DNA of 64,000 nt, taken from NCBI RefSeq assembly GCF_900112195.1, contig NZ_FOKR01000002.1:368833-432832 (forward strand). The letters run 5' to 3'. Under the pieces are notes generated by a model that made no database searches, was not told where the DNA came from, and was given only the letters and a program-made list of their open reading frames with translations. A program made the position numbers and the translations under genes. Of the stretch, positions 57,340-64,000 are shown piece after piece; positions within the stretch are counted from its first letter, which is position 1, and every line of letters begins with the position of its first letter. This DNA is from Butyrivibrio sp. YAB3001 (lineage in GTDB: Bacteria; Bacillota; Clostridia; Lachnospirales; Lachnospiraceae).

Positions 57340-57413
57340 TTGTGTGGGAGCTTTCCTTACGCCCATTCCACGCTCGGAACTTTCGTTCCTCGCTGCTACA
57401 GCTTCGCCGTATA

Positions 57414-61554: not shown

Positions 61555-63999
61555 TTAAACATTTTTGTCAGTCTGAAACTCTTTTTGAAGCCACATCAAA
61601 AGTCTCACCAGCGTTTTTTCTTCATCAAATAAGTATACGTATCCCTGAAGAGATTCCGCTTTCTGGCGAAGAGTCTTGGAATGGCTCCAGACACATATCG
61701 CAGACCTCCCTTTCCCGTTTCTGGCTTCCTGAATAAGATTTGCAGCAGCACTATTACCGTCAAAAGCTATAAGCAGCGATGGACGTCTTTCAAATATCTC
61801 ATAGTTAAAACTCTTATATATTCCCATTCCCATGGATTCTATGGAAACCCTTATAAGCACTCCGGCTTTTTTTAGCTTGTCAACTTCGCTTTGAGTTACA
61901 AGAGCGGGAACTACCGCATAAATTCTGAACTTCTTATCATTATGCTCAATAAGATATTTCTCATATCCTGAAAGTTTATGACCTATTACAAAGCACACCT
62001 CATCCGGATTTAAAAATTCAAGAAGGTTATCCAGCTGTCTTGCGCCTTCCGGTGTAACTCTTGTTGCTCTGTTTTCAGTATTAAAACTACCTCCAAGGAG
62101 CACGATTGGCAGTCTGTCCCACTCAATCTCAGAGATTTCTTCCTTAAATTCCCTGTTTGCATCAAGTTTTCCAACCTGTTTTTTGCCTTTGGACGAAATC
62201 TTAACAGTCTGCATCTTTTCCAAAAGAACTTCTTCCATGTCTCTTCCTGCAAGAAGTTCTGCATATTTAGCCTTTTTTAAAGAATATGCTTCCCTGCTCT
62301 TTTCTATGATTGATTTCTCTGTCTGACGCATGAGCCTCATCTCATCCTCAGAAAGCCCCAGCATTTTTTCCAAAGATAGCTGTTCATCCATGGAAGATGT
62401 TCCGTACAAAGCCGCTCCATCTGTGCCCTGTACGCATTTGATCCCGTGCTTTAAATATTCTTTTAACGGATGCTTATCCAAAGAATTGAGGTTATTAAGG
62501 CGCACGTTACTTGTTATCTGGAACTCAAGAACCACATTGTTTTCTTTAAGTTCTTTTAAAACCTTTCGTCCTTTCTGTGACTTAAGGCTATAAGTATAAA
62601 GTCCATGTCCCAGACGCATTCTTGGCATAGGCTGTGAAGGAGCAAGGCTTTCTTTTACGCACTCTATGCTGTGAGAAATATTATCCTTCTGGCTGTCATT
62701 TTCTCCAGCATGAACGCGGATAACAAAAGTCGGATCTTTAGCTGCAATTTTCACTATTTCCTCAAAGACAGGCTTAAGTGTGATGATATCATTTATCTCC
62801 TCACCCACAAAATCACAGCCTGCAACATAAGGATCAAGGGAAGTTGCCTTTAACACTTCCAGATTCTCTTCCAGATAGTTTGAAGGAGTCACTGCATCCT
62901 TAATAATGGTCAGCGGAATCCTTCGCATAGCTGCAAGGAAACGAATCATAACCCCTGTATCTCTGTAGATACTTGGCATCACCTCGTGAACCTGTCTTAG
63001 CATTTCAATCGATTCATATTTTTTTACAAGAGTTGTATCGCTTATTTCAGCGTACTCAACACCCTGCCTCTTATAGTTTCTCGCAATCCATAAAAGCTTA
63101 TCCTGAAAAATAGTATTGTTGCAATAATCAGGATTTTCCTTGTCTATCAGCATCTGAATAAGCGCGCCCTTTACTTCCTCATCCGGTATCTGATACACGT
63201 TGGAGATATTTATCTTATCTTCGCTTTCTTTTCCCTTCGCAAAGACATATCTGTAAAGATACACTTTTTCAAGATTCGTAAATACCGCCTGTCCGTCCCT
63301 GATTATACCCAGTGAACCGCGAATTTTCACTATATTAAGCTCGGCATTATCAAGGTTATTAAGAATTAAATCTGCAAAATTTATAAACGTATTGTCATCA
63401 ATTTTTCTGTTCAGATATTTTCCTTTTAACTCAGATGTAATAAACTGCCTTGCTACCTTTTCACGCTGTATATTAACCTTCGCCCACTGAGTCTGAGTAA
63501 GCTTTAAGTCAAGTTTTTTTACATAATAAAGCGGGTATCGTATCTGATGGTAAATTCCAAGGGCTATAAGAATATCAGCAGGAAGATTGCCATTCATATG
63601 TGTGTGAAGATCACCCCTGAATTTGAGTTCTTTTTTAATATAGGTCTTAAAGATAGTCTTCGAAATATCCAGCTGATAGTCCTTGGTCTGGCTCATAAGC
63701 GTCTTGGCAATTGCCGGAACCTGCGCAGTTACTTCTACTGTCCCATCCGTATGAATTGAAGCCACTTTAATATTCCCAAGTCTGAAAAGATATATCTCCT
63801 CGCAATTTGCATCGATATAACAGGGAATCTCTCCCTTTATGACCAACATGCCATTCTCATCCTGCGTAAGAGGTTCATTACAGGTAGCCGCAAGATTTCT
63901 TATCAAATTTCCGGTATGATGGTTTGGCGTTGACAGGCAAAAGAAAAGTCTGTCCAGCTCTCTATATACGTCAACCACTATATCCTTTTCATTATCCAA
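61555..63999 (-). CDS. adenosine-deaminase-fold protein fused to a SLOG-like nucleotide-binding domain (partial, start beyond the right edge)
   Basis: About 814 aa are visible; the frame is open to the edge and the first visible codon (TTG) is unlikely to be the true start. The deaminase zinc motifs are all present: DLHTHMNGN (H132, H134), VHAGEND (H429, catalytic E432), RLGHG (H464), FQITSN (496-497) and GTDGA (D526, zinc). The residue after D526 is Gly where ADA has Asp of the D-D-P motif, so substrate contact differs. About 300 residues separate H134 and H429 (about 200 in ADA), so there is an insertion of about 100. Residues about 625-800 look like a Rossmann SLOG/LOG domain: IVLLGGSFN, CFVIGHKL and LLIAFDGNSAAANLIQEAR. 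Not a known housekeeping deaminase; resemblance in size to RADAR RdrB is noted but not proven. Confidence 0.75.
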   Translation of the reverse strand: MDNEKDIVVDVYRELDRLFFCLSTPNHHTGNLIRNLAATCNEPLTQDENGMLVIKGEIPCYIDANCEEIYLFRLGNIKVASIHTDGTVEVTAQVPAIAKTLMSQTKDYQLDISKTIFKTYIKKELKFRGDLHTHMNGNLPADILIALGIYHQIRYPLYYVKKLDLKLTQTQWAKVNIQREKVARQFITSELKGKYLNRKIDDNTFINFADLILNNLDNAELNIVKIRGSLGIIRDGQAVFTNLEKVYLYRYVFAKGKESEDKINISNVYQIPDEEVKGALIQMLIDKENPDYCNNTIFQDKLLWIARNYKRQGVEYAEISDTTLVKKYESIEMLRQVHEVMPSIYRDTGVMIRFLAAMRRIPLTIIKDAVTPSNYLEENLEVLKATSLDPYVAGCDFVGEEINDIITLKPVFEEIVKIAAKDPTFVIRVHAGENDSQKDNISHSIECVKESLAPSQPMPRMRLGHGLYTYSLKSQKGRKVLKELKENNVVLEFQITSNVRLNNLNSLDKHPLKEYLKHGIKCVQGTDGAALYGTSSMDEQLSLEKMLGLSEDEMRLMRQTEKSIIEKSREAYSLKKAKYAELLAGRDMEEVLLEKMQTVKISSKGKKQVGKLDANREFKEEISEIEWDRLPIVLLGGSFNTENRATRVTPEGARQLDNLLEFLNPDEVCFVIGHKLSGYEKYLIEHNDKKFRIYAVVPALVTQSEVDKLKKAGVLIRVSIESMGMGIYKSFNYEIFERRPSLLIAFDGNSAAANLIQEARNGKGRSAICVWSHSKTLRQKAESLQGYVYLFDEEKTLVRLLMWLQKEFQTDKNV

Positions 64000-64000
64000 A

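Follow-up and report, generated by a model that had tools for sequence, protein, structure and literature searches.

Butyrivibrio sp. YAB3001 encodes a protein in which a zinc deaminase core is joined to a C-terminal SLOG-like domain, which raises the question of whether such an enzyme serves nucleotide-based defence, as a first, sequence-only reading of the locus had suggested, or some other function. The stretch of DNA that was analysed (64,000 nucleotides, hereafter the window) corresponds to positions 368833-432832 of an 855-kb contig, and the gene, here called ADA-SLOG, leaves it at the right edge. The complete open reading frame occupies 61555-64023 on the minus strand and encodes 822 amino acids, starting from an ATG that lies 23 bases outside the window (position 64023 in its numbering) and is closely preceded by AGAGG; the TTG start is an artefact of the window cut, the contig carrying the ATG further out. 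Whole-gene dN/dS values of 0.031-0.064 in seven close pairs mark ADA-SLOG as a functional gene rather than a chance product, and per-domain values stay below 0.09 apart from one N-terminal estimate, 0.26, computed from a dS of 0.026. The fusion is real. In FP929036.1, the draft of Butyrivibrio fibrisolvens 16/4, the gene is broken into three reading frames (L110:8001-10460), as by frameshifts or sequencing error. The HTH, HAGE, DG, GGSF, and DGNSAAAN motifs were each confirmed by re-reading the window letters, and an AlphaFold2 model based on a 37-row alignment reached a mean pLDDT of 84.8 and a pTM of 0.76. The features are as follows:

61555..64000, minus strand: in-window part of the ADA-SLOG gene (full frame to 64023, 822 aa, ATG start)
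61558..62136, minus strand: C-terminal SLOG-fold domain, residues 630-822 (model and fold comparison)
61738..61761, minus strand: DGNSAAAN motif (D755, G756, and N762 invariant, 37/37)
62083..62094, minus strand: GGSF motif of the SLOG domain, after its strand 1 (invariant, 37/37)
62224..63639, minus strand: adenosine-deaminase-type TIM barrel, residues 129-600 (Pfam and fold comparison)
62416..62421, minus strand: D535-G536, the metal Asp retained, then Gly where ordinary ADA has Asp/Asn (37/37 rows)
62605..62607, minus strand: catalytic His H473 of GHG (alignment)
62701..62712, minus strand: HAGE motif, H438-E441 (window re-read and alignment)
63109..63501, minus strand: insertion specific to the family, residues 175-305 (36 rows agree fully at 29 of 131 columns)
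63598..63606, minus strand: HxH metal motif, H140-T-H142 (window re-read and alignment)
63640..64000, minus strand, reaching 64023: N-terminal beta-rich domain, residues 1-128 (full-length model)

The barrel is a member of the A_deaminase family (PF00962), which it matches with an E-value of 5.7e-17 and 62.2 bits against a cut-off of 27, and residues 124-582 of the model align to solved adenosine deaminases with Z up to 27.1 over 317 residues (rmsd 3.2 Å). D138, H140, and H142 are invariant in every alignment row that covers them (36 of 37), while D404, H438, A439, G440, E441, H473, D535, and G536 are invariant in all 37, bearing out the initial description of a deaminase core with all catalytic motifs. 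The large insertion noticed between HxH and HAGE is likewise genuine: it comprises about 130 residues where ordinary ADAs from the taxonomic family have about 30, in an alignment read by eye. The profile-profile alignment between the two groups gave an E-value of 8.9e-24, the ordinary set consisting of ten sequences obtained from 14 loci by requiring HAGE and a length of 280-420 aa. The equivalog model for adenosine deaminase proper, TIGR01430, was not reached (58.4 bits vs a cut-off of 216.55). Matches to the N-terminal domain occurred in 7/226 genomes of the class, six of which carry ADA-SLOG, the seventh match being weak (E 0.0026) and in a different reading frame; no CARF family was among the Pfam matches of the N-terminal 125 residues of two members. 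YAB3001 also encodes a 317-aa and a 312-aa protein of the A_deaminase family, both with DLHNH and HVGE rather than HLDG and HAGE; matches to them lie at C43:25620-26093 (L123) and C35:375827-376273 (L124).

The residues governing substrate choice set ADA-SLOG apart from its ordinary relatives. According to PMC12669630, TaqCad1 and its close homologues differ from canonical ADA at two positions, those of Asp19 of mouse ADA, which bonds the ribose hydroxyls, and Asp296. The substrate of TaqCad1 is ATP but not AMP or ADP, and the enzyme is without adenosine activity. The D19 position is N144 in ADA-SLOG (Asn in 35 of the 36 rows with a residue, Ser in one), and the D296 position is G536 in 37/37 rows. 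In the ten ordinary ADAs, D19 is conserved throughout, whereas the D296 position is Asn in eight and Asp in two. The D-D to D-G change first noticed at the second position is therefore fixed in the family, though Asn is common there in ordinary ADA as well, and the D19 position is altered in addition. Both positions are thus replaced in ADA-SLOG as in TaqCad1, albeit by different residues (N/G vs G/N). Judged by its missing substrate aspartates, ADA-SLOG would not be an adenosine deaminase proper, and it is probably an enzyme active on a nucleotide; a 5′-phosphorylated substrate suggests itself because both adenosine-specificity aspartates are lost, as in TaqCad1. By reading, the 317-aa and 312-aa A_deaminase-family proteins of YAB3001 lack D19 yet keep D-D, so loss of D19 is not peculiar to nucleotide deaminases.

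The nature of the C-terminal domain was approached through its predicted structure. Modelled alone, residues 630-822 gave a mean pLDDT of 91.2 and a pTM of 0.89, and the best 50 VIA fold matches were molybdopterin carriers, TRPM MHR1/2, DprA, and LOG/lysine-decarboxylase-like chains with Z of 11.7-14.5, two of those listed (1rcu and 1weh) bearing structural-genomics titles only. We take these chains to share the SLOG fold, a label that the tool itself did not give. Other searches returned less: Foldseek was weak, with a best E-value of 3.2e-3 (TRPM4) followed by Moco carriers and DprA among unrelated Rossmann-like folds, and a BFVD search gave E-values of at least 0.013, the matches being DprA-like and DUF2493/SLOG proteins together with many radical-SAM proteins. 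Three C-terminal domains gave no Pfam match to a SLOG family at E≤5, and the sole match in a PDB sequence search with the domain had an E-value of 1.3. Membership of the SLOG superfamily is thus supported by the predicted fold; the SLOG-like tail proposed from the letters stands at that level, though sequence profiles did not recover it. The catalytic motif of LOG phosphoribohydrolases, PGGxGTxxE, presumably corresponds to the DGNSAAAN of ADA-SLOG when placed by eye, where DGNSxxxN is found instead and the position of the LOG glutamate is N762, an Asn in 37/37 rows. Since the LOG motif is absent and an invariant DG...N stands in its place, a binding domain is favoured over a hydrolysing one. 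SLOG proteins include some enzymes and DNA binders, so that a sensing role for this domain is a guess.

Within the genus, ADA-SLOG is present in 58/79 genomes and in 39/47 good ones, with one chromosomal match per good genome, compared with 74/79 and 47/47 for the control pyrB. Three less complete genomes of the genus hold two partial matches each; in one incomplete genome, a second partial copy (G359:C33:587-1312, query residues 14-255, two stops) lies beside a longer match. Further afield, ADA-SLOG was found in 18/299 genomes of the taxonomic-family sample at E below 1e-200 (a hand count; the raw count of 77 takes in other deaminases), in 27/295 genomes and two families of the order sample, and in 2/398 genomes of the phylum sample, both from its own genus. 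With the C-terminal domain as query, the class sample yielded 8/291 genomes: four belong to the same genus, three to f211, a family outside the order, with full-length homologues that share about 52% identity with ADA-SLOG, and one has a weak, unrelated match. A C-terminal match in genome G1260 (E 0.0018) was set aside, the 568-aa reading frame having no discernible relation to ADA-SLOG. A quick tree of 91 proteins (91 of 100 rows, omitting the duplicates L001, L003, L004, L005, and L010 and the truncated or broken L020, L080, L109, and L110) broadly tracks genera, with three changes for Butyrivibrio, two for Pseudobutyrivibrio, and one for Lachnospira and with 27/88 inner branches open. No full-length ADA-SLOG was found on phages, plasmids, or viral contigs. 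An origin from mobile elements was considered and rejected: viral contigs hold no relative, and in phages and plasmids the matches (4 and 19 records) cover 15-32% of the query, within the ADA core. Counter to this non-mobile picture, an integrase-like reading frame was read about 3 kb from one homologue beyond the order (locus L138). ADA-SLOG stands alone on the chromosome in Lachnospirales and one further order, and its inheritance is mainly vertical.

Downstream lies dinB (Pfam IMS), convergent and 29 bases off, and upstream an RluA-like gene, named by reading, on the same strand and 65 bases off; the block pyrB-pyrI-CAP-sortase-dinB-ADA-SLOG-rluA is found in the same order in all four closest relatives. 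ADA-SLOG is 79-81% identical to its counterparts there, which is a mid-range divergence among neighbours that extend from 54-57% (DUF5050-like) through 64-70% (rluA), 68-71% (dinB), and 82-86% (pheA/ppx) to 96% (pyrB). By domain, the barrel is more conserved (84-86%) than the SLOG domain (72-78%) and the N-terminus (67-75%). The largest recurring neighbour cluster reaches 14/95 non-duplicate loci (15/100 with five duplicates included) and the rluA-like gene is near in four, counts drawn from mechanically called reading frames and partly from short contigs. A conserved partner gene was therefore rejected, and the conserved neighbours sought in other genomes to support the first interpretation did not emerge. 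By reading, a homologue from outside the order is flanked on one side by pheT and an mscS-like gene and on the other by ffh. Translations at the locus itself and at homologue loci revealed no purine operon. SOS control via GAACNNNNGTTC, which we take to be the SOS motif, was likewise rejected: no site lies at ADA-SLOG, and the genome has 23 sites, fewer than the 180 of the control pattern. One of these 23 perfect GAACNNNNGTTC palindromes, for which 180 is the count of the reversed control, is located at window positions 57377-57388, just past pyrI.

Several known systems resemble ADA-SLOG in part. Cad1/CAAD likewise fuses an ADA barrel to a Rossmann-type nucleotide sensor, and Cad1 chains align with the model with Z of 21.5-23.8 over 307-324 residues. 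In Cad1, however, the sensor is an N-terminal CARF domain rather than a C-terminal SLOG domain; the PADLOC family CARF_ADA matches ADA-SLOG in its barrel only (E 1.8e-8), and no type III CRISPR locus was read in the flanks (13 kb upstream, about 9.7 kb downstream). Cad1 sequences sought with CARF_ADA in the class sample (18/245 genomes at E≤1e-15) proved unusable for comparison, since the matched frames of 321-362 aa have the size of ordinary deaminases. In ThsA, the enzyme is N-terminal and the SLOG domain C-terminal. ThsA (SIR2-SLOG) of Thoeris also pairs a nucleotide enzyme with a SLOG sensor; its effector is SIR2 rather than ADA, and the TIR match of YAB3001 (C25:105035-105355) lies on a different contig from ADA-SLOG, so the locus does not qualify as Thoeris. 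RADAR RdrB, to which the sequence-only reading had pointed, is a large deaminase whose ADA core is split by an insertion, as in ADA-SLOG, but the portions of the RADAR papers available mention no C-terminal SLOG domain. ADA-SLOG is moreover a single gene with no RdrA read beside it, unlike RADAR. The sequence beyond the right edge, unseen in the first reading, holds the start codon; no AAA ATPase was read among translations over 13 kb upstream, past position 64000, and about 9.7 kb downstream. A PADLOC scan of the protein at E≤1, with a library that we take to include an RdrB model, listed CARF_ADA alone, and RdrB is absent from the best fold matches listed for the model. Kinship with RdrB was set aside as unsupported, although its absence from the fold listing does not speak against it. 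Identities of 24-28% are given in PMC9994260 for RdrB proteins from different RADAR systems; these come from distant hosts, so the contrast with the slow evolution of ADA-SLOG is only suggestive. No paper on an ADA-SLOG fusion was found, the defining SLOG classification (Burroughs et al. 2015) lying outside this comparison, and the portions of PMC7159879, PMC12948488, and PMC10952713 seen do not mention it. ADA-SLOG looks like a so far undescribed form of the architecture that combines a sensor with a nucleotide enzyme.

Taken at even odds (a probability of about 0.5), ADA-SLOG would be a self-contained, ligand-controlled deaminase that is stand-alone, gated by its SLOG domain, and directed at an adenine nucleotide. 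The SLOG domain would bind a small nucleotide-type ligand, and binding would gate the fused ADA barrel; the barrel, whose metal site is complete, as invariance and fold show, would deaminate a 5′-phosphorylated adenine nucleotide and not free adenosine. The 130-residue insertion probably serves, with the N-terminal domain, as the lid and/or oligomer interface.

It is very unlikely that the protein is instead an ordinary adenosine deaminase carrying a structural C-terminal appendage. It shares fold, metal site, and the full motif set with ordinary ADA (PF00962), but differs in D19 to N, D296 to G, the insertion, and two extra domains, and its GGSF and DG...N motifs are invariant rather than drifting; the architecture read at first holds, and it is not that of ordinary ADA. 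Bifunctional purine salvage, in which the barrel would act on AMP or a similar nucleotide as a deaminase while the LOG-like domain would cleave the base off the monophosphate, is an improbable reading: the C-terminal fold closely matches LOG-like and molybdopterin-carrier proteins, inheritance is housekeeping-like, and loss of D19 may admit a 5′-phosphate, but ADA-SLOG lacks the LOG motif (the glutamate being Asn throughout), and no purine operon was read around the gene.

The remaining alternative, a chromosomal anti-phage effector, is unlikely, though it has the most varied evidence to weigh. In such a system, the SLOG domain would bind a nucleotide signal raised by infection, for example, an ADP-ribose isomer made by a TIR protein, and conversion of ATP/dATP to ITP/dITP would arrest the cell as in Cad1 or RADAR. 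The best listed fold matches include TRPM2 MHR1/2, a region with a part in binding ADP-ribose, and the architecture parallels both ThsA (SIR2-SLOG) and Cad1 (CARF-ADA). ThsB_TIR matches were found in 31/39 gene-positive but 3/8 gene-negative good genomes (Fisher p 0.028, kinship ignored), and the integrase-like frame at L138 points in the same direction. Yet the TIR matches are mostly proteins of about 1000 aa, none lies within 100 kb of ADA-SLOG when the listings are compared by eye, and 8/39 positive genomes have none; a Thoeris pairing, to which the co-occurrence lends weak support, was rejected on this last count. ThsB_TIR-like domains occur in YAB3001 and 50 other genomes of the genus, with two or three clustered in several of them. 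No neighbour recurs widely, no mobile copy is full-length, evolution is slow with conserved synteny, and the CARF_ADA match is confined to the barrel. A defence island was also rejected: among the best 25 of the 95 PADLOC families that match at least one neighbour at 1e-5, none exceeds 5/130 nearest neighbours, the commonest being HTH_VI and PDC-M69A (130 of 159 nearest-neighbour proteins scanned, excluding frames below 110 or above 700 aa and loci L001 and L003-L032). A rumen survey (PMC11834463) puts 24 defence families below 20% of Butyrivibrio genomes, a level that ADA-SLOG far exceeds; RM and Abi, however, reach 37-97% in rumen genera including Butyrivibrio, so a high share alone is no argument against defence. 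Overall, the possible defence role first proposed is disfavoured by context—presence in 39 of 47 good genomes, synteny, strong purifying selection, no partner, no mobile copy—and is unproven. A vertical inheritance pattern is compatible with immunity.

For the reading of ADA-SLOG as a ligand-controlled nucleotide deaminase, mainly vertical inheritance as a stand-alone chromosomal gene makes a housekeeping or stress role in control of the adenine-nucleotide pool likelier than mobile defence; a regulatory or metabolic role is more likely than an immune one. A bolder version, offered tentatively and itself unlikely, would see a single-gene, SLOG-gated deaminase of ATP/dATP (or of the ADP-ribose class), near-core in its lineage: a one-chain chromosomal counterpart of Cad1 and ThsA, which may act as a domesticated immune or stress switch and flood the cell with inosine nucleotides upon a nucleotide alarm. 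Cad1 in CRISPR and RADAR already provide examples of adenine-nucleotide deamination under sensor control, which limits infection there. If true, the replacement of CARF by SLOG in a near-core protein would imply either that the switch is used outside mobile defence or that immunity has gone core, and ADA-SLOG would be a candidate new ligand-enzyme pair in common rumen bacteria.
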